A DNA stretch of 15,014 nucleotides from Thalassiosira profunda (Eukaryota > Bacillariophyta > Thalassiosirophyceae > Thalassiosirales > Thalassiosiraceae), in the NCBI GenBank assembly GCA_036939355.1, contig JALLAP010001831.1:1-15014 (forward strand). Reading direction: 5' to 3'. Below the pieces are notes generated by a model. It was not told the DNA's origin and made no database searches. It saw only the letters and a list, made by a program, of their open reading frames with translations. Positions 66 to 12,062 of the stretch are shown here, piece after piece; position 1 is the first letter of the stretch; each line of letters opens with the position of its first letter. Made by a program: the position numbers and the translations under genes.

Positions 66-105
66 CCTTGGATATACTTTTCTTGGATAGACCTTGGATA
101 GACTT
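66..105 (+). repeat. Left terminal inverted repeat, three 11-bp units
   Basis: This 40-bp sequence matches the reverse complement of 6783-6822 with a single mismatch (T at 75). It holds three copies of CTTGGATAGAC, at 67-77 (one base different), 82-92 and 93-103. Such repeated units within a terminal repeat are a common format for transposase binding sites; binding itself is inferred. Confidence 0.9.
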
Positions 106-120
106 TCTACGTACTAATTC

Positions 121-180
121 CGACGTGGTTTCCCGCAAAATTCTACGTGGTTCCCGCCAAAATAGAGATATATGGCGGGA
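121..180 (+). promoter_or_regulatory. Putative promoter of the dioxygenase gene: repeated E2F-like boxes and a small hairpin
   Basis: Just inside the left terminal repeat there are two near-copies of an approximately 21-bp unit, (CG/CT)ACGTGG followed by TTTCCCGCAAAA at about 130-141 and TTCCCGCCAAAA at 151-162. Both resemble the E2F/DP consensus TTTSSCGC. The second box forms a 7-bp stem (CCCGCCA 153-159 with TGGCGGG 173-179). A matching TTCCCGCCAA lies at 6775-6784 upstream of the transposase. The regulatory reading is inferred from sequence likeness only. Confidence 0.3.
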
Positions 181-677
181 GCGCTCCCCGTAGAAGCTTG
201 GTACAAAATCTGCGTAGAAATACTTAGCAGATTTTGCAACACCCCGAGCGCCACACAAAAGAGGCCACCACACATGAAGCACAACCTCCCCCCACCAATC
301 TTCTAGCCCCCTTTGCCTCCGCCACCCCCGGCGCACCCACCTCGCCGCCCTCTACCGCCGCCGTCCTCGCTGCCGCCGCCATCCTCGCACCCGCCTCCGC
401 CGCCTCCATCGGATCCTTCAACCTCGGCGAGTCGAGTGCGACGCCCGCCCGGACCGACGCAGGCACCGTCGACGACAGCCACGTCCTCGGGCGCGCCCAG
501 AGTGCCCACGCCGCGCGGCTGCGGCCTGTCCTTCCTTCGATATCCGGCGCCTTCCATCGCCACCGCCCCTCGCCCGCCACGCCTCCGGAGTCGCCGCCCA
601 TCGAGCTGCAAATTGATTGTGGCGGCGACAGTCTCTCCCCCGATTCGCAGCCGCCGCCCGACGACGACGCAGCCGCC

Positions 678-2105
678 ATGGCTCGCAGCGGCCGCAATGG
701 CAAGACGACGGTGTGGGGACACCGGTTTACCCTCTTTCGGGCGTTTAAGGACGCCGAAGAAGCGGGCGGCTTGGATAAAGTCCGGGAGAACTACAACAAA
801 TATTCCTTGCAGAGGAGGCAATTTCGGAAGAAGGAGCGGGAGGAGAAAGGCACTGGCAAAGCGCCGGACGCCGACCTGGCTGGAGCTGCTTCTATACACG
901 AGACAATACTCAAGCAGAGGGCCGCCATCAGGTCGAAAGAGAGCAGCCCCTCGGCTCCGCATGATGTGATTGAGGGCGATAGCTTTGTGAATTGCAAGCG
1001 ACTTCGCTACTGCAAAGATAGGAACTTGGCCAAGGTGGATGGACTCCCGGTCCCTTTGCAAACCAATCCCACAACCGCAAAGTTTCGGGGAAAGACCAGA
1101 AAGATCACAAAGAGGCTGCAATTGAACAAGGAGGTGGTGGCGACTCTGAACTCTCCTAGGATTGGTGAGCATTCTGGGGAAGTCACTGATGTGAAGTTCC
1201 CAAACGGGCTGGAGAATGTTGTGATAAAATGCCGCAGGGACAGCAGTGACAGTGCCTTGAGAGATTTCCACAGCTTTATGATGGATGGAGAAGGGCGGCG
1301 CTTTGATGAGTTGCTGGACCAGCTGCCCAATTGGTGCTGGAAGCTGGATGCATTGGGTGGTGGCCGATACCATCCAGTGGGGCATAGCACTAGGGGATGC
1401 CCGAATGGGATGCCTACGGGACAAGCCTTCCTCAGAGAAACGGCTAAAAATGAGCATTCAGTCGAGATATCGAGGTTGCTGGGGAAGGCGTTTTCTCTCA
1501 TTGCACGCATCCTTAGCAAACACTGCCCTGAAGTGCTCGAGGAGAACGACCAGTTCAGACAGATGAACAGCAACGCTGCGTGGCCAACCTATGCAATGCA
1601 AGATACCATGTGGCACATTTTTTGCTCCCAGATTGCTATCAGGCGATGGGGTGGCCCTAAGTACGCGCAGACCCGAGATGAGGCGATGACTTCATTGCAT
1701 TGGGATAGTGGGGATGTGGACACCCGTCTGCCCCTATTTTACAGGCCTGGCGGTGGCGTTGGAGACCTGGGTGGCCCAGTAGAGGACACAGACTTGCAGC
1801 TATTCGAGGATGAGAATGGTGGCGCGTCTGTGACTGTAGAGACCTGCATTCGCGACACAATAGTGATCATTGTCAAAAACGCTCGGCGGCAGCTTCATGG
1901 GGTCGTGAAGAGTTCTCCTCAATTTCAATCTGATGGGACCTGCTGGTCTACTCGATTTGTGCCTTTGTTCAGTATGGGGGTGTGGTATTGGATGAGGCGA
2001 GAGGAGCCAACTCGCAAACCTTGGAGATACCCGGAGTGCAGAAAGTTTCCGTGGGAAAGTAGGCAATACAACTTGCCCTGGCCGGTTCTTGGAACCGAAT
2101 CCTAG
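678..2105 (+). CDS. Putative Fe(II)/2-oxoglutarate dioxygenase, TET/JBP-like, carried by the transposon
   Basis: This gene encodes about 475 residues from the ATG at 678, which sits in a strong context (GCCGCCATGG). The frame stays open upstream to a stop at 225 but has no other ATG, and that stretch is Ala/Pro-rich low complexity, so I treat it as leader; a 10-codon upstream ORF (274-306) lies in it. The N-terminal 75 residues or so are basic and charged (QRRQFRKKEREEK), which could suit nucleic-acid binding. The C-terminal part carries H341-W-D343, then H407 in RQLHGVV and R426 in STRFVPLF, the order of iron ligands and 2OG-binding Arg in double-stranded beta-helix dioxygenases. TET/JBP enzymes oxidise 5-methylcytosine or thymine in DNA. 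Subfamily placement is inference; another 2OG dioxygenase family such as AlkB-like or prolyl hydroxylase-like is possible. It converges on the transposase gene, 315 bp from its stop. Confidence 0.55.
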   Translation: MARSGRNGKTTVWGHRFTLFRAFKDAEEAGGLDKVRENYNKYSLQRRQFRKKEREEKGTGKAPDADLAGAASIHETILKQRAAIRSKESSPSAPHDVIEGDSFVNCKRLRYCKDRNLAKVDGLPVPLQTNPTTAKFRGKTRKITKRLQLNKEVVATLNSPRIGEHSGEVTDVKFPNGLENVVIKCRRDSSDSALRDFHSFMMDGEGRRFDELLDQLPNWCWKLDALGGGRYHPVGHSTRGCPNGMPTGQAFLRETAKNEHSVEISRLLGKAFSLIARILSKHCPEVLEENDQFRQMNSNAAWPTYAMQDTMWHIFCSQIAIRRWGGPKYAQTRDEAMTSLHWDSGDVDTRLPLFYRPGGGVGDLGGPVEDTDLQLFEDENGGASVTVETCIRDTIVIIVKNARRQLHGVVKSSPQFQSDGTCWSTRFVPLFSMGVWYWMRREEPTRKPWRYPECRKFPWESRQYNLPWPVLGTES

Positions 2106-2420
2106 TATAGAGAGAGCTAATGGGGCAACACTCTTTACAGAATCTGTGAAACGGTGTCGAGCGATGGCTCCGGCTAGCATATTTTCAGCCCGAGGGTCCA
2201 GATCTGAATTCCTAGGGAGTTCTGGGAATCGAACTCTGCTGGTAGATAAATTCATGAGAAGAGCCAAGGTAGTTCTGAGAATACTGATACCCTACATACC
2301 CAAATCGTACCACTTAAAACGGCCCGGAGTTGCCGGCGGAGCAATCGCCAGTCAACACTCGGCCCTACTTCTCCAATTATACGGCCCGATGGGCAACTAC
2401 AACACCCAAAAAAGCCCTTC
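2106..2420. other. Intergenic region between two convergent genes
   Basis: This 315-bp spacer separates the stop codons of the dioxygenase and transposase genes. It must hold both 3' ends. I see no AATAAA signal, repeat or further gene in it. Confidence 0.6.
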
Positions 2421-5400
2421 TCAAACAGATCCCTCCGCATTTTCACTGTGGCCCGTCTTTAGTCTCTTGCTGTCCGGCTCCAAATCCAGATCAGCCAGAG
2501 CATCGGAAGAGACGGCCGAGAAGAACACAAAGTCATACGACTTGATGGAGGCCAACAAAGCCAAGTAATCAACAAAAACATCCTCATAGGAAACCGTGCG
2601 GGTTCCCTCCTTTTGAGAGAGTGCATTTCCAATCCTGTCAATGCATGTGCGAAAAATATACTTCTTGCCCCCCGCGGCTACCGTCTTGTATCCCTTGACC
2701 TGAACCCTTTTTGCAGTTTTCGGCGGCTGTGTCAATTCTGGCTTCCCGCACAAAGACTGCTCCTTTGTAAGGTCAGGAAACTCGGAACGGCCATCAACAA
2801 TCTCTGCCAACCTTGAGCAAGTCTTCCCTGAGTCCTTTTTGGCGAAAAACTCACCCAATGCCGCCTTTCGGGGACAGGTTAGAATGTTTCCGGGGTGTTC
2901 GCCTACCGTTAGGCAGAAGCCACACCTTCTCGGTTGCTTTCCAGCGGTGCTGTTTGGGCCACCTACCCTATTTCTCCGATTTCCGCCTTGTCTCCGCACA
3001 TATCTCCGCACAACCATTTCCCCGTGGCCACTAGACTGCGAGTCCAGGGCAGTGATGCTCTGTAGCTGGCCGGCGAGCGCCTCAATTGGAGTGCCTTTGT
3101 GGCGATCCGCTGCATAGTCTCCCTCCTCAAGGAGACTTGTGATCTTGTCTACCATTGTGAGGATGACGTTTTGGACACGGTTGTCGTGAGAAACGGTTTG
3201 GTCGGCCAAATTTTTGCATGCATCCTGCAGAGTGGTCCATGCAACATTGGCATTGATATTGCAGCTGTCTCTCTGCGTTTTGAGATCAATGTCGCCAGCG
3301 CCCGTTGACCCAGTTTTTGATGGAGAGATGGCAATCTGAGAGAAGGATGGCTCTGCTGCCCGTTTCTGGCGCTTGGAAGGACGGATTTCATCCGCAGACA
3401 GCTCGACAGCATCATTAAAGTCTTCCGCGCCGAATCCACCAGAAGAATCAAAAACATTGCCCTCGTCTCCCGTCGACTCGAGGGCAGGCATTGGTGCATC
3501 TGCAGCCTCTGCTTTCTCCATAGACGGGTGAAAATGATGCAACGGGCTGAACAGATCCAAGCAAAACGCTGGCTGTTTTCTGTGCATGCGTTTTGCAATT
3601 TCATGCCGGCACTGATCTTCCCATGCAAAGACATGGGGGCAGTCACAGCGTTTGCCATCCTCCAGAAACCGCACCTTATCTGGTGAGCCAGTGTGACTCA
3701 CGTTGCACCCATTCGGAACATCTGTCACATTGTACGACGACCGCAGTTTGTACTGTTCCAAAAACCGCATATATGGTTGCCAGTGCAGTCTCAGCCTGGC
3801 TTCTTTCAGATGCGGCCGATCGGTGGGGCTCATTTGCCTTATGGCACCCGCTGAAGTGCCATCCCATTCCAGCCATTTTGCCTGCCTCTCATCTAGGACG
3901 TCACCGCTGCGTCCAATGATGTCAACAATGAACTGCTGAATGCTTTTTTTGGCATTATCTGGCACTCGCCGGGCAAGGCTTGAATGGTTTTGCTCGACGT
4001 AGCACGATGTCCTTAGATTACGGTGGCCGCGGATTTGGATGGTGACGTAGTGAGCCCATCGTTCACGCTGGTTCTGCCACTTCAGGATAGTCTCTTTTGC
4101 ATTCTGGTCATTTCCCACGGCAACCAAGGCGCGTTCGATGTGTTTCTAAAGAAGGCGCAGGCGAGTTGGTGAGGTATAGCAGGTAACAAGCGGTGAATAG
4201 AGCCCACTTGGGGGTTCTTACCAAACATTCTTCCTCCGTCTTTGCATAGACTGCTCCGTGAAAGTGCGGCTTCACCAGCCTCCATGCGTCGCCAAAGTCC
4301 CGTGACAGAATGCAGATCCCTCTCTCGCCGACCAGGAAGTGGAAGGTGTCCAGCATTACAATGCAATTGGGGAAATATTCTCTTATCTTCTCGCCGTCGA
4401 TTTTGTCATCAGCGAACGCCAGTAAAACGTCCTCCGGATTCATCCCAGGCGTCATAGCAACAGATTCAGTGTGCAAGAACTTGTACAAGACGTCCAACTC
4501 TCCCAACAACAACGCCTCCGTTCCAGGGATGAATTGGTTGTTGGCGTCGATGACCACCCATGAGGCATACACATAGCACAGTTCATTCATCTCCTCAGAG
4601 ACCCGCATATCCCAGAAGCCCCGAGCGCCGTACTTCTTCAGCGCATGCCTGGCTCTGCCATCTTGCCAGACGACACCGTTGATCCGGCCCTGCTCATCCT
4701 CAGAGAATCGATAGCTGAAGTATTGTGGGTCTTTCCGCTTTAGGTTGTTCATGAGGCGGCGGAGGATGGTCGAGGTTGTATCGGATGTGTTAATTGCAAG
4801 ATCTTTGAGAACCTGTTCGCAGTGGCGCGTAGACTCATCTCTGGTCGAGAACTTTTGGAACTGCGCCAAGCCAGCCATGTCAAGCAGAGGACGCGCCGCA
4901 ACATCTCCAGAGTCAACAAGGGCTTTGACGCCTCTCAGTATGCTCCCAATGTTCTTTGCATTCAAATCCACGGCGTCTCCAACCATCGGCCGCAGTTGGC
5001 TCCGCACATAAGCTACTTCCGGGCGAGTCGGAGCAGTGACAATGGGTGCCATTGCCTCGGCAACGCATTTCACGGCCGCCGACACGACCTTTCTACTCCG
5101 CTTTTGAGAGGTGTTGAAGGTTGAGGTGGTTAGGGGATGATTGTGCAGGCCATCTACTCTGGCGATTGTGACCCGTTCATGCTTCTTCGACTTCTTCATC
5201 CAAATGCCCCACGGGCAGCCGCATGCTTGGGAATGTGGATTTCTTTTGGCCTTCCCAGCGCCGGGCAGGGAAGGCGGGCGATAGAGGGAGCACCGAATTT
5301 GATTGTAGCCATTTTTTCCGCAGGTAAAACAGTTCTGCCCGCCAAAGGCATCTGCTGTCTGTTTCAATGCCGATTCGTTCTCATAAGTATGGCCGACAAT

Positions 5401-6627
5401 GAACTTTGCTACGGTCCGCTCCTGTACTTCCGCAGCAGTCAATTGTCTGTACACAGAGGCGTTCGCAGGCGCCTGAATCGAATCAACTGGCTGGCAATAC
5501 GGTTCACTGTCCAGCTGGATTGCGGGTTGTGGTTGTTGCATGGCTGCCAGAGGTGGCGCAGAACGGATTATCCCGACTCCCCGGTTTGAACCCTTCCGGA
5601 GGTGGAGGTGCTCCACTTTGGTCACTTGGATACCGTCGATTGTGACAATGCGATCCCCTGGCTTGGCCTTCCCAAAGAAGGGACTGGTATTCTGAACCGA
5701 CATGATAACTGCTCCCAAATCTGCATCGATCCGAACACCAACACCCAAACTGCCAGGAGGGATGTTGTGGGTCACTGGCGCGGGACGGGCATTCCGCGGG
5801 ACAGCCTCCGTCGCCAGCCCTGGCGCCCCGCCGGACAGTCCCGTCAACTCCCCCGCGGCGGTCTCCGCGGCGGTCTCCGCGGCGGTCTCCACGGCGGGCT
5901 GCAGCATGCCCAGCCCGGCCAGCGACGCCGGGTCCTCCTCGGCTGGTGGCGCGGCCTCCGTCACAACGGGCGTCGGCTCCTCGTCGACCGGCGACGCAGT
6001 CTCCTCCACCGCGGGAGGCACTGCCCCCGCCTCCTTCGCCAGCCCCGGCGACGCCACCACCTTGTCCTCCGCGACCTCCTCGGCGGCGTCCTCGGCGGGC
6101 AACTCCGGCTCGACCTCGGCGAGCGACTCATGCTCCTCGGCAGCTGGCAGTGTGGGCTCTTTCACCACTGGCGCTGGCACCTCCACCGGCGACGCCGCCT
6201 CCTTCGTCTCCACAGGGGATTCCATCGCCGGCGGCGCCCTCCCCGCCACAAGAGAGGCGGGATTATCTTCCTCCTCGACCGGCGACGGGGCGCCCTTCAC
6301 AGAATCGGCGAAGGTGCGCCCGGGCATCCGAGGGGAGGATGGAGGAGGTGATTTGGGGCGATCGCACTTGGGCTTTTGGGAGGGGGGCGCCGTCTGCGCC
6401 GGCGGCTGTTTGGTCCTGTCGCCGCTGCCAGGCGAGAACGACGACTTCTTGGGGTGGCGGCGCTTCCTCTTCTCCCCAGCGGCGCCCTTCTTGGTGCGGT
6501 TCTTGGGGGCGGCGGGGGCCTTCTTCTTGCGCTCGACAGTGGTCCACATGCCATCGTCGTCTTCCGGCACAAATCTCGCAGCAGGCGCCGAGCGGCGGCC
6601 GCTGCTGGGGCGGGTAGCAGGGCTCAT
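2421..6627 (-). CDS. Mutator-like (MULE) transposase with PDZ-like domain, two exons
   Basis: Exons 6627-4222 and 4145-2421 join in phase to give about 1376 residues, longer than most MULE transposases. Domains in order: Lys/Arg-rich then Pro/Ala/Glu-rich low complexity (1-285); a PDZ-like domain (about 290-350, GVGVRI...KPGDRIVTIDGIQV); a FAR1/WRKY-GCM1-like zinc domain (about 410-495: CFTC, a later Cys pair, HNHPL); the RNase H-fold core with D694 (WVVIDANNQFIP), D740/D741 (FADDKIDG...YFPNC) and E853 (CYVEQNHSSL); a SWIM finger with C969, C971, C981, H983; and a CX2CX5HX6C zinc knuckle near 1210-1226. The order DNA-binding zinc domain, D-D-E core, SWIM is the MULE hallmark. It would cut and join the element at its terminal repeats in the nucleus. 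The PDZ-like domain is unusual and suggests a protein partner. Start: ATG at 6627, about 155 bp inside the right repeat. Confidence 0.85.
4146..4221 (-). other. 76-nt spliceosomal intron in the transposase gene
   Basis: On the minus strand it begins GTAAGA and ends CTTTAG. Removing it joins ...EEECL to KHIERALVAV in phase 0 and links the half of the catalytic core with the first two Asp residues to the half with the Glu. The intron has no in-frame stop, but 76 is not a multiple of three, so retention shifts the frame and ends translation at 4108, after about 839 residues. Confidence 0.85.
5855..5890 (-). repeat. Three tandem 12-bp repeats inside the transposase coding region
   Basis: GCGGCGGTCTCC is repeated exactly three times on the plus strand (5855-5866, 5867-5878, 5879-5890), followed by a decayed fourth copy. 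On the coding strand this gives ETAA repeats in the low-complexity segment before the PDZ-like domain. It keeps the frame and is probably replication slippage. Confidence 0.9.
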
Positions 6628-6782
6628 ATCTTTGATGGGATTTGGGGCGGCGGCAATGGGATTGGGGGCGGCGGCGAGTTGGAGTTGTGGGGAGAGCTGG
6701 AGGGGCGCTGCGGATTGGGATCCGCGCTCCTCCCGGAAGGATCTCGGTGAAAATTGGTGGCTGTGAGAGAGGCCTTCCCGCC
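6628..6782 (-). promoter_or_regulatory. Leader and putative promoter of the transposase gene
   Basis: This stretch lies between the right terminal repeat and the transposase ATG. It is G-rich on the plus strand and carries TTCCCGCCAA at 6775-6784, touching the terminal repeat, which matches the E2F-like box at the other end of the element. No clear TATA box is seen. Promoter function is inferred from position. Confidence 0.3.
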
Positions 6783-6822
6783 AAGTCTATCCAAGGTCTA
6801 TCCAAGAAAAGTCTATCCAAGG
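6783..6822 (-). repeat. Right terminal inverted repeat, three 11-bp units
   Basis: Inverted partner of 66-105. On the plus strand it reads as three copies of GTCTATCCAAG at 6785-6795, 6796-6806 and 6811-6821, with the same unit spacing as the left repeat seen from its outer side. It lies about 155 bp upstream of the transposase start codon (6627), so it may also contribute to the promoter. Confidence 0.9.
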
Positions 6823-6865
6823 AGGCAATCTCCCCCTTTTGCTGTTCAGGTTGGAGTACTCTTAA

Positions 6866-6884
6866 CCCGTTATTTACGAGGCCA
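6866..6884 (+). repeat. Left 19-bp terminal inverted repeat of the TTAA-flanked element
   Basis: Perfect inverted partner of 8984-9002, starting CCC directly after TTAA. The similarity resumes after a 2-bp difference. Confidence 0.85.
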
Positions 6885-7992
6885 GATTTTGCCAGATTTT
6901 TTTTTCACCTTCACTCAAACCACCCCAATCGCCCACATGGCCCCCTCCTCCTCCGCCCCATTCCTCCGGTGGCACGGCGAATACAAGCACGCCCGGCATA
7001 TCGGCATAGACCCCCGCTCCTCCGCAATCACTGACCCACGCCGATTCGGCCGCGCCGCCCGCCCGCGGCTGTAAATCGCGATCGCCTTCACGTGCATCGA
7101 AATCGCCGCCGTCATCGCGACGCTGTTGAATGGAGGCAAATATAATTGAACCACCGCCACTTCATTTGCATCCTCGCCCATCGCCCAAGCTAATACATGC
7201 AGGTGATCGGCTCTGGCGAAGGAACCGGCCGAGGAGCTGTGATTTTGCTTGCTTGGCGGCTTCATGTCAGCGTCAGCAGTGATGGAAAATACTGGCCACA
7301 TATTCGGTGATGGGGAAATCGTCGAATGTTCGCCTGTGGCAATTAAAGAGCCGTTCCATTGCAGCCGCGTCTTCATAAGAACCCCGTCTAGATGTCCGCT
7401 GCTCCAAATTGCAATTGGGGAAGAGTGAGGATCAATTTCCTACCACCGGTGGAGGCCACCGTATTTTTTCGCGGTCGGGTCGGGCTTGGATGGATATCTG
7501 CTCGAATGATGGGCCGGTGGCCCTCTCCTTCAAAACAAGCAGCTCTTTTGCACATCGGAGATACCCCAGAGCATAATCCATGCGAGTCCTTGGGCGGGGT
7601 TGCTGTGATAGGGGCAGTATAACACATCAAACTCGGCCAACAGTGGGGACAATTTTCAACACGGAATCACCGGGGAGCCTGATCCAGGATCTAGCCGATA
7701 CACAGTTGAATAATGACTTTGCACCAAACAAATACAATCTATACATCGCGTTGCCTTTGCTTATCATCGTGATGGCGTTATTTCGGCCTCGCTGATCTAC
7801 GTTTGTTGCATTTCTAGGGTGCTCACTCAATTCACTCGCCATCAGCGCCGTTCTTCCCGATTCGATGCAGTGGCAGACCACCTCGCCATTTGCAGTGCTC
7901 ATTCTACCCCTCGGCGCTTCTCTTCAAGATCGGTTGTTGCCGCTAGATCGCGGAGACGAGTCATCGCGACGCTGCATCGCAAGATTTAGCCG

Positions 7993-8006: not shown

Positions 8007-8983
8007 ATCACCGGTGGTATGTGTAGGCATATTGTTGCGTGCGGAAGGCTCAACATATCACCCCCTCGTCCACCCCCGCGGGACAATGGGCTTCCTATAC
8101 CCCACAGCATCGTCCCAGCTATCGTTGGCGACGATCTCCTCGGCGCACTCACGTTTATCCAAATGCCAAATGCATATTATGCATATCGTGTGTCATTACG
8201 GCCAAATCGACACATGACGACGGAAGAGGCTCGGCCGGGAGGCCATAGAGCCTTCCAACGGCCAACCCACGCATTCAGGCGATGTATCTGTGTCCATAGA
8301 GGAGGAGGATGGCGAGAGGTTGGGTGAGGTTGTTGATGGAAGAGAAAGATTAACGTTGTCAACTGGGCTCCTCATAGCAATTTTTTGGGTGTGTTGAAGA
8401 GTAGCGACGCACATCACACGACGCGATCACCGCCGCCCCACGCCAATATAAAATAGAATGACGCCATAGGCACATCGCCCCTATTGTGAAGGAGACGCTG
8501 ATGCATTGGCGCTGCCGGCGGCGGCTTCGTTCCGCGTCGCGGGCAGAATAATGAGCACGTCCGCTCAAGTCCAACCAAACAGCTGCCTCGTAGTCAACCC
8601 GCCTCCTCCACCGCCCCCCGATCCCCGCACAACAAAACCCGCGCCATCGGTAGATGTCGACGGATGTTTTGAACGATATCAGCGCCGGAGACGCAGCGAG
8701 AGGGTAGACGGGGGGCCATAAATGGGCATCAGCGAGGTGACTGCAACGACGGAAATGATCGACGGCCAGGCACGAAATTGAAAGGCACCGGCGCAAAAAA
8801 TATAACGCCCCCACGAGGCGAAAAAGGACAAACCACCGCACCAAACACGTCGACCACTTACCAATGAAGGTGCGGACGAAGTGGGGTTGCGGAGATCGGC
8901 GCGGTTCTGTTGATATGCCGGCGGCGAGAGGGGGGTTGTTTTGGGTGGGTGAATTCATGAAGAAAAAAAGTTGGCCAAAAAGT

Positions 8984-9002
8984 TGGCCTCGTAAATAACG
9001 GG
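8984..9002 (-). repeat. Right 19-bp terminal inverted repeat of the TTAA-flanked element
   Basis: Perfect inverted partner of 6866-6884, ending GGG directly before TTAA (9003-9006). It lies about 150 bp upstream of the P450 start codon. Confidence 0.85.
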
Positions 9003-9020
9003 TTAAAGCTAGCGGTAAAA

Positions 9021-9087: not shown

Positions 9088-9155
9088 TTTATCTTTTCCC
9101 CTGATTTTTTCCCCGCCAACCCAACAACTTGCCACAAGCCAGCACAAGCAACAGC

Positions 9156-10661
9156 ATGCCAGTAGCTCCGCCTAACCGCTTTCCCACCCTCCTCGAGCGC
9201 CTCGACGCGGCCCGGTGGCGGCTGCCCCATTCGCCCGTCCTAAACTCGCCGCGGGGCGGGCCGGCCTTCGTCCTCGACCCGGCCCTCGCCCGCTCCATCC
9301 TCGACGAGCACGAGTTGTGCTCGCCGAGCGACGTTGCGGATGATGTGATCAGTGATCAATTGGCGAATTTGGAGAAGCCGACCAAGCCGACGAGGCTGCT
9401 CCATCACGCGCTGACGAACGCCAACGGCGACGTGTGGGAGAGGCAGAGGCGTTGCGTCGGACGGGCCTTCGCGGTGGACAGGGCGACAAGGGCGGAGGCG
9501 TATGCGGGGTTCGCTGTCGACGCAGCGATGGGGCTGATCAATGAGGCCTCCGACCGCAGCTGCAAGAAGCGCCGCCCGTTCTCGCTCATCGACAAGTGGA
9601 TGGGAAGAAACAGAGGCGGGGGAAGAATGGACGTGCGCATCTTTGCGAGGGATGTGGCAATACAAACTTTGACGAGAATAGTATTGGGGGAACGCCACAG
9701 TGGAAATGCAACAATAATCGATGCGCTGCACGGGATGGTGAAAGACACGCTGGAGCCGCGGCGGGACGAGGAAAGTTCCCGGGAGAGCGAGTCGATCGTG
9801 CAACAGTTGGATATTGCCGTGAGGGAGGCGATTGAAGAAATTGCAAAGAAAGAGACCGGTTCAGAAGATGAACAACATCAATGTCCCTGCCTCGCAGAAC
9901 GGCTGCTCCTGCACGAGCAGTCTCGAGATGGTACCACAGAACATCACCTCACGCGGGACGAGGTGGTGGGGAATGCCCACTCGGCCCTCCTCGCGGGCAT
10001 ACAAACAATCAGCACGACGCTAGCCGGCGCACTGCTCCGTTTGGCCGAGAGACCCAATCTCCAAATTGAGCTCAGGGAAGGATCTCTATCGGGGAAGGAG
10101 GTAGCACATGAAGCTCTGAGGATATTGCCACCGGTCGCAGGGCTCCCTCGGGTGCCGAAGATGTGCGATTTGCAAATAACGAGGCAGGGCGAGCAGGGCG
10201 CCGGGAGGTCCTGCACGGTCCGAAAAGGCAACGTGCTGGTCATTGATGTGCTGGCCTTTGCGCACGCCCAGGAATCGCCGATGGAGGAGAGGAGTGCCCC
10301 GACGAGTGCCAACACCGCAATTCAGGACTTTCCAACCCTGCAATTCGAGCCTCGATCGAAACGAAGGACGGAAGCGCAGCCGTTCGGAATCGGGCGTCGA
10401 CGGTGTCCGGCGGGAATCCTCTCGGTCGAGTGCATCGGCGCCGTATTGGAGGCCATTGCCTCGACGGGGCATTCGTGGTCGTTGTGCAACTCCCGAGACT
10501 GCGTGGCCGGCCAACATAGCAGGGGCGGGTGGTACGAAACCATTTGCTACAGGCCCACGCTGACGTTTGGTGCTCCGCTGATGATACGAATGAAGCGGCT
10601 GTCAGACTCGGCAGAGAATGCCCATGATAGTGCACAACACATTCATTCTAACACATCCTAA
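9156..10661 (+). CDS. Cytochrome P450 monooxygenase, soluble type
   Basis: This single-exon gene encodes 501 residues, a normal P450 length. The landmarks are in order: helix C WxxxR (W94-R98), helix I AGIQT (280-284), helix K ExxR (E319-A-L-R322, in HEALRILPPV), the PERF-like FEPRS, and the haem-binding loop FGIGRRRCPAG with ligand Cys417. It should bind haem through that Cys and activate oxygen to hydroxylate a small organic substrate that I cannot predict. The N-terminus (MPVAPPNRFPTLLER) has no hydrophobic anchor, unlike most eukaryotic microsomal P450s. The ATG at 9156 is the first in frame after a stop at 9102, unless an upstream exon exists. Gln283 replaces the usual acidic residue before the helix I Thr, and Ala419 sits where the classic FxxGxRxCxG has Gly. 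It converges on the EF-hand gene 119 bp away; no partner reductase is in the window. Confidence 0.92.
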   Translation: MPVAPPNRFPTLLERLDAARWRLPHSPVLNSPRGGPAFVLDPALARSILDEHELCSPSDVADDVISDQLANLEKPTKPTRLLHHALTNANGDVWERQRRCVGRAFAVDRATRAEAYAGFAVDAAMGLINEASDRSCKKRRPFSLIDKWMGRNRGGGRMDVRIFARDVAIQTLTRIVLGERHSGNATIIDALHGMVKDTLEPRRDEESSRESESIVQQLDIAVREAIEEIAKKETGSEDEQHQCPCLAERLLLHEQSRDGTTEHHLTRDEVVGNAHSALLAGIQTISTTLAGALLRLAERPNLQIELREGSLSGKEVAHEALRILPPVAGLPRVPKMCDLQITRQGEQGAGRSCTVRKGNVLVIDVLAFAHAQESPMEERSAPTSANTAIQDFPTLQFEPRSKRRTEAQPFGIGRRRCPAGILSVECIGAVLEAIASTGHSWSLCNSRDCVAGQHSRGGWYETICYRPTLTFGAPLMIRMKRLSDSAENAHDSAQHIHSNTS

Positions 10662-11743: not shown

Positions 11744-12033
11744 CCCCAGGTATCAAGGTTAGCCGCCGTTTTATTTCTAGCTGATACCCCGGTATCTCGC
11801 TTTGTTAGCATATCAAGCGCCGCGGTTTTGTTTCTAGCTGATACCCCGGTATCGAAACGCCGGCGAGACGCACCCAGATCAGGAGTCGATCGAGTCGCGT
11901 CCGTGACTCAAGACGCTACTAGCTTCGTTCGTAGACGAGGGTACCGTACCCCTGCTTAGTACCAGGGCTACGCATATCCACGTAGGAATTCAAGTTTCGC
12001 CGCCGCCGTTTTTTTCTGGCTTGATACCTGGGG
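11744..12033. repeat. Inverted repeats enclosing a 290-bp segment
   Basis: CCCCAGGTATCAAG at 11744-11757 is the exact complement of 12020-12033 (14 bp). A second inverted pair uses ATTCCTACGT: 11728-11737 against the complement at about 11981-11990. The enclosed segment includes the 29-bp direct repeats. This could be a small non-autonomous element (MITE-like), a nested set of remnants, or part of the 5' region of the downstream retrotransposon. Confidence 0.6.
11768..11853 (+). repeat. Direct repeat pair of 29 bp, 57 bp apart
   Basis: 11768-11796 and 11825-11853 match at 28 of 29 positions. Both contain TTTCTAGCTGATACC followed by CCGGTATC, so each copy includes a GATACC/GGTATC inverted pair with a 2-bp spacer. 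A diverged third relative lies at about 11999-12031 (TTTTTTCTGGCTTGATACC). Confidence 0.85.
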
Positions 12034-12062
12034 CAGCCGCGTTCACGACGTGCTCGTCGACC

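Follow-up and report, generated by a model that had tools for sequence, protein, structure and literature searches.

Element and transposase

The window analysed here, the whole of contig C1174 (15,014 bases), raises the question whether the DNA transposon at positions 66-6822 carries its own enzyme for the oxidation of methylated bases. The element has paired inverted ends and two convergent open frames with catalytic residues, one for a transposase and one for an oxygenase. Relatives of the oxygenase gene lie in a second element of the same genome (contig C1251) and upstream of a Helitron gene (contig C472). We consider it probable that the element is a Mutator-like (MULE-type) transposon with a DDE transposase and a convergent TET/JBP-like dioxygenase, which likely oxidises 5-methylcytosine (5mC) of the element to counter silencing. 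Its features are:

66 to 105, plus strand: left terminal inverted repeat (TIR), matching the reverse complement of 6783-6822 at 39 of 40 positions
234 to 677, plus strand: Pro/Ala-rich in-frame open stretch before the dioxygenase ATG, candidate coding, with TTG at 234
678 to 2105, plus strand: predicted TET/JBP-like Fe(II)/2-oxoglutarate (2OG) dioxygenase, 475 aa, convergent to the transposase gene (open frame, family of ten, model fold)
2421 to 4145, minus strand: exon 2 of the MULE-type transposase, 574 codons and stop, with E853 (3993-3995) and a SWIM motif (3603-3647)
4146 to 4221, minus strand: transposase intron of 76 bases, GTAAGA...TTTAG, phase 0, predicted from sequence alone
4222 to 6627, minus strand: exon 1 of the MULE-type transposase, 802 codons, with a PDZ domain, a weak FAR1 zinc finger, D673 (4609-4611) and D740 (4408-4410)
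5602 to 5754, minus strand: PDZ domain within the transposase, residues 292-342 (PF13180, 29.4 bits, cut-off 27)
6783 to 6822, minus strand: right TIR of 40 bp, paired with 66-105

The element is 6.76 kb long. Its 40-bp ends, identical at 39 positions, and the identical 51-bp ends of the element on C1251 are long TIRs of the kind found in MULEs. Outside the right arm, the next-best 40-mer at or beyond position 106 of the contig matches the left arm at 21 of 40 positions on the reverse strand and at 20 on the direct strand. In the scanned assembly (21.8 Mb, 1366 contigs), the 22-base core of the repeat occurs at two sites only, with up to two mismatches allowed, and these are the two window ends. 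An earlier note on this DNA had described near-identical terminal repeats enclosing a MULE transposase and a protein with an HxD...H...R core. The paired ends, the transposase triad and the oxygenase residues H341, D343, H407 and R426 bear this description out.

The minus-strand open reading frames (ORFs) 4108-6627 and 2421-4127 overlap and were joined in frame over the predicted intron into a protein of 1376 aa with two predicted exons. Both exons comprise whole numbers of codons, and the predicted intron borders are canonical. The residues D673, D740 and E853 are in register with those of the transposases on contigs C1042 and C1202, as in RNase H-like D...D...E enzymes, and a CxC...CxH motif of the SWIM type was read by eye. 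Two other transposases encoded in the genome align with it by BLASTP at E 1e-19 over 401 residues and 4e-19 over 389. Six further loci were matched through the PDZ-bearing N-terminal part alone, and the exon-2 protein found only itself in the genome. To our knowledge, the fusion of PDZ to a MULE transposase is unusual. A Pfam scan of the transposase revealed no MULE profile and no match for the DDE part. The FAR1 zinc-finger match (E 0.017) was below the cut-off, as was the match of the C1042 relative to ZSWIM1-3_RNaseH-like (5e-4). With no MULE profile matched in Pfam, four features stand behind the label 'MULE-type': the D...D...E residues, the way FAR1 and SWIM are arranged, the length of the TIRs and the 10-bp target duplication that flanks the sister element on C1251.

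Predicted dioxygenase gene and its family

The earliest in-frame ATG of the dioxygenase frame is at 678 and the stop is at 2103-2105, which gives a protein of minimum 475 aa; because the frame is open from 234, a longer one is possible. The core residues are H341 and D343 of the HxD motif (1698-1706), D346 (1713-1715), H407 (1896-1898) and R426 (1953-1955). All five are invariant in the ten aligned relatives, so that the HxD...H triad and the 2OG arginine are present throughout. These ten are the proteins of the window and of contigs C1251, C407 and C472, together with the database proteins P0001 and P0002-P0006.

Genome searches detected four dioxygenase loci in total, none with an internal stop: the window gene and its relatives on C1251 (52% identical), C407 (37%) and C472 (33%). 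A database of 5.8 billion proteins contained at least one close relative, P0001 (66% identical), and the search started from the C407 protein added at least five more, P0002-P0006; in both searches, scores were computed only for the 7996 candidates with the most words in common. A tree of all ten placed the genes of the window and C1251, both bounded by TIRs, in one supported group with P0001 (98/99). The C407 gene and the Helitron-side C472 gene were on long branches, and their placement is unsure. Between the window and C1251 genes, the proportions of nonsynonymous (pN) and synonymous (pS) differences were 0.33 and 0.76, the latter saturated; the remaining five gene pairs gave pN of 0.44-0.52 and pS of 0.76-0.80. 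These values suggest that the protein sequence has been held while silent sites drifted.

D346, three residues past the HxD aspartate, is Asp in ten of ten proteins. Placed by spacing only, it stands where TET enzymes have Asp or Asn: Asn1387 of TET2, Asp234 of NgTet1 and Asp350 of CMD1, each three past the HxD aspartate, bond N4 of 5mC, and CcTet has Gly at this position and also accepts N6-methyladenine (6mA) (PMC11040006, PMC7854593). D346 argues for cytosine rather than thymine as the substrate base, by comparison with CMD1 Asp350 (PMC7854593).

Pfam scans of five and then of all ten relatives identified no oxygenase family. A weak LSM match in two of the ten (best 0.074) was judged to be due to chance. 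No DNA-binding domain was recognised by Pfam in the dioxygenase. Among viral contigs, 61 stretches fit a pattern, and none of them codes for a relative. When phages were searched with NgTet1 to build a TET set, the matches were weak (E 0.9 or worse) and were not used.

Predicted fold

The structural model of the dioxygenase matches double-stranded beta-helix 2OG oxygenases. Among the 50 matches listed by VIA-align, the nearest solved structures were CMD1, TET2, NgTet1 and CcTet; every TET row stood above the rest, and the lead over FTO ranged from 0.6 (weakest TET) to 3.0 (best). Aligned residues numbered 238-256 for CMD1, TET2 and CcTet, 212-232 for NgTet1, 197-210 for FTO, and 174-190 for AlkB-type proteins. 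By its closest double-stranded beta-helix, the modelled protein is predicted to belong with TET/JBP. The earlier note had proposed such an enzyme at 678-2105, and the modelled fold agrees with it, with AlkB placed first by the E value of Foldseek.

A single-sequence AlphaFold model, with a predicted local distance difference test (pLDDT) score of 36, was discarded as useless. Comparison of the model with predicted viral structures gave four matches at E≤0.001, none informatively named, and these were not used.

Related elements in the genome

The following features of other contigs are referred to below:

C1251, 4399 to 4449 and 9013 to 9063: inverted ends, 51 bp, identical, flanked by the 10-bp duplication GCCTCCAGCG
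C472 (L022/L028), 536 to 2536: dioxygenase relative, ORF of 666 aa, 33% identical
C472, 6209 to 13645: intact Helitron ORF, 2479 aa, with DUF6570, Rep, a weak OTU match (below cut-off) and PIF1 helicase
C407 (L021), 981 to 2966, minus strand: frame of 662 aa immediately downstream of the dioxygenase relative, for which Pfam gave no hit at E≤1
C1042, 3813 to 5144 and 2510 to 4156, minus strand: ORF with a Zn2Cys6 cluster, and an overlapping ORF with HxD read by eye

The relative on C1251 (locus L019) lies inside the perfect 51-bp ends, and its gene order (end, oxygenase, convergent ORF with a SWIM motif, end) is that of the window element. A TET-type gene is thus found within an element bounded by both TIRs and a target-site duplication (TSD), perfect over 10 bp, on C1251, and within TIRs without a TSD in the window; MULEs typically duplicate 8-11 bp of target. 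As the ends of the two elements differ, the dioxygenase family travels on elements with unlike ends. The SWIM ORF of C1251 did not significantly resemble the window transposase, and a genome search with it returned this ORF alone. The earlier note had asked whether both genes co-occur in other copies bounded by the same repeats. The result favours its reading, with limits: a second element with a dioxygenase gene and a TSD does exist, but its ends are different, no DDE core was found in it, and the MULEs on C1042 and C1202 have no such gene.

Contig C1251 contains a single N at position 8010 (610 of L019), with 72 identical bases on both sides. This points to an assembly join at which little or nothing was lost, and sequence loss at the N was rejected. 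The outer 29 bases of the C1251 TIRs are found again where contigs C41 (L040) and C981 (L041) break off. In their last 55 bases, both contigs stop just within the C1251-type repeat, and the C41 copy differs in its inner part. Because the flanks do not match, these are separate insertion sites, and their interpretation as two sides of one insertion was rejected.

The C472 relative is located 3.7 kb upstream of the Helitron ORF, on the same strand. No element was recognisable around the C407 relative within its contig. DDE transposases of the window's group number at least three in the genome, and the dioxygenase gene accompanies one of the three, that of the window. The MULE on C1042 (L024), which has no dioxygenase gene, contains an ORF that converges with its transposase gene and encodes a Zn2Cys6 cluster of the fungal type (PF00172, 5.6e-5). 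The product of the overlapping ORF, P0007, is not claimed as a second oxygenase, since profile comparison and the PDB search gave nothing.

Possible host methylation and proposed function

The host genome encodes 32 light-harvesting protein matches, so the host is photosynthetic and probably an alga. It also has 14 matches to the C5 methyltransferase profile PF00145 on nine contigs (best 2.6e-70); candidate writers of methylation are thus present together with four candidate erasers. In the mechanism that we propose, host C5 methyltransferases would methylate the element. The dioxygenase, as predicted from its fold and residues, would flip out 5mC and oxidise it, with D346 at the N4-contact spacing of TET2, NgTet1 and CMD1. 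The oxidised base might then be read as unmethylated, diluted or repaired, and the transposase promoter and the element ends may in this way stay active.

The window element has an observed/expected CpG ratio of 0.874, the C1251 element 0.858, and the two MULEs without a dioxygenase gene 0.963 and 1.133; the minima of controls outside these four elements were 0.968 (52 windows of 6757 bases) and 0.886 (75 windows of 4665 bases). Since the control windows overlap and come from six contigs, one of which carries a Helitron, and since the elements are largely coding, the ratios are a hint of past methylation only.

A broader proposal is possible but doubtful. A TET clade so divergent that current profiles miss it may serve both MULEs and Helitrons, within a single alga-like genome, as a portable gene against silencing; MULEs outside plants would then have met methylation by the host with oxidation of the base itself, and an unknown kind of cytosine mark may be written by the enzyme on the DNA of the element.

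Alternative explanations

Several results weigh against the reading of the element as a MULE with a TET/JBP-like enzyme. The Tet_JBP profile (PF12851) had no match at E≤10 in the genome and none in the ten relatives; 14 control genomes also gave no TET above the cut-off, so this search had no positive control. The protein is therefore termed TET/JBP-like and not a profile member, and of the TET/JBP assignment made in the earlier note the fold has held while the profile match has not. A PDB profile search with the dioxygenase family found no oxygenase, only weak matches to RAD23 and others. The hhalign comparison with NgTet1 was not significant (E 0.27); its local run gave one block in which the HxDxxD motifs of both proteins are paired, and the global run paired unrelated ends. 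The motif HxDxx[D/N/E] is present in AlkB and PHD2 as well and is not unique to TET. The aromatic and His/Arg residues of the 5mC sandwich, which CcTet and TET2 have 6 and 8 residues past the 2OG arginine, are absent at this spacing, where the window protein has S432 and G434. The reference for this spacing is Arg385, Phe391 and Arg393 of CcTet (PMC11040006). The HxD loop (333-349) has a pLDDT below 50 in the model. At the level of the element, no clear TSD was seen around the window ends (left flank ...GAGAACTCCA, just 65 bases long in all; right flank AGGCAATCTC...). No DDE core was found in the C1251 element, and the C1042 and C1202 transposases belong to elements with their own ends and without a dioxygenase gene. 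The make-up of the CpG control belongs here too, as does the ratio of 0.963 in a MULE without the gene.

The best surviving alternative, which we regard as unlikely, is a different 2OG oxygenase (AlkB-, FTO- or prolyl-hydroxylase-like) acting on alkylated DNA or RNA, 6mA or protein, for example in transposition repair or regulation. The missing TET profile match and the motif shared with AlkB and PHD2 agree with it. So does Foldseek, where AlkB leads by E value (7.5e-6; TET2 has rank 22) and by TM-score over the target (mostly 0.44-0.52, TET2 0.35-0.36). The TM-score over the query, however, favours TET2 (0.32) over AlkB (0.16-0.27), and in VIA-align even the weakest TET row listed leads FTO, with longer alignments than those of FTO or AlkB.

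Less likely still, the dioxygenase may be a passenger, a host gene captured as in Pack-MULEs and without a role for the element. Gene capture is known in MULEs (PMC12477816), the two other MULEs manage without the gene, and the C407 relative has no recognisable element. Nevertheless, two elements whose TIRs differ contain members of the family, and another member lies upstream of a Helitron ORF; the frames are open and their changes constrained, and the C1251 frame has stayed open although no DDE core was found beside it.

It is also rather improbable that the enzyme labels the element with a new base mark, in the style of the glyceryl-methylcytosine of CMD1 or the hydroxymethyluracil of JBP, instead of demethylating it. 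In the two genes of the window element, Pfam showed no partner enzyme for further modification, such as a glycosyltransferase, and D346 favours cytosine over thymine (PMC7854593).

An accidental pairing, with real ends around a nested separate insertion or a host gene, would suit the missing TSD and the single copy of the window ends in the assembly but is very improbable, given that the dioxygenase gene occupies the stretch from the left end to the transposase gene, with which it converges, that C1251 repeats the order with a 10-bp duplication, and that no second pair of ends (≥20 nt) was found around the gene in the window.

Comparison with known systems

The fungal precedent invoked by the earlier note is real: a survey of fungi reports TET-bearing DNA transposons in 11 lineages and proposes an anti-silencing role for them, without experiment (Kojima, 2025, PMC12730594). 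The present case is similar in that a TET/JBP-like gene is enclosed by the TIRs of DNA transposons and has relatives in one genome on elements of different make-up, one of them upstream of a Helitron ORF. Unlike the fungal transposons, the window element belongs to the MULE/MuDR superfamily, which is outside the 11 lineages; its host, which encodes light-harvesting proteins, is not a fungus, and the gene family is invisible to the Tet_JBP profile. The survey mentions MuDR/MULE for VANDAL and SET-bearing elements only. A transposon with its own TET is thus already known, and what is new is the extension of the list to a MULE, a photosynthetic host and a gene family missed by Tet_JBP. Searches of the open-licence PMC literature, outside which many journals lie, turned up no report of TET in a MULE, judging by titles and the beginnings of abstracts. 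The publication on the Chlamydomonas genome (PMC8226300) names TET only among its references.

The anti-silencing role that we infer for the dioxygenase has a parallel in the VANDAL MULEs of Arabidopsis, where VANC is described as a sequence-specific anti-silencing protein (PMC10398659). Both are MULEs with a second gene thought to oppose their own silencing, but the second gene of the window element encodes a predicted oxygenase in which Pfam recognised no DNA-binding domain, and the modelled oxygenase fold would account for it. Other DNA transposons also carry a second gene that modifies chromatin or DNA: a Phytophthora MuDR, thus a MULE, has a SET methyltransferase (PMC12730594), and Sola1-1_Ec32 of the brown alga Ectocarpus has a ParB/DNA-methyltransferase gene on the strand opposite its transposase (PMC12477816). 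These are histone or DNA methyltransferases, whereas the window gene would encode a DNA-base oxygenase.

With CMD1, TET2, NgTet1 and CcTet, the window protein shares the predicted fold, the 2-His-1-Asp triad and the C-terminal arginine and, with all but CcTet, the Asp/Asn three past the HxD aspartate. It differs from them in its low identity (8-13%), in base-sandwich residues that are off spacing, and in the lack of a sequence-profile match.

Should the predicted activity be real, one more superfamily of transposons has taken up the oxidation of DNA bases, apparently with a photosynthetic host. It would then be a recurrent answer of eukaryotic transposons to methylation and not a fungal peculiarity. 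Because Tet_JBP does not detect this family, the number of transposons with a TET gene may be underestimated.

Other features of the window

Two ORFs are neighbours of the element:

9129 to 10661, plus strand: cytochrome P450 ORF
10781 to 11653, minus strand: ORF with two EF-hand stretches

Just beyond the element, an inverted repeat (6862-6928 and 8940-9006) has arms of 67 nt that are 73% complementary and 2.0 kb apart; it may represent another, older element. At 11762-12036, a 35-nt repeat is present in three direct copies with spacings of 57 and 183, the second and third being 94% and 63% identical to the first.
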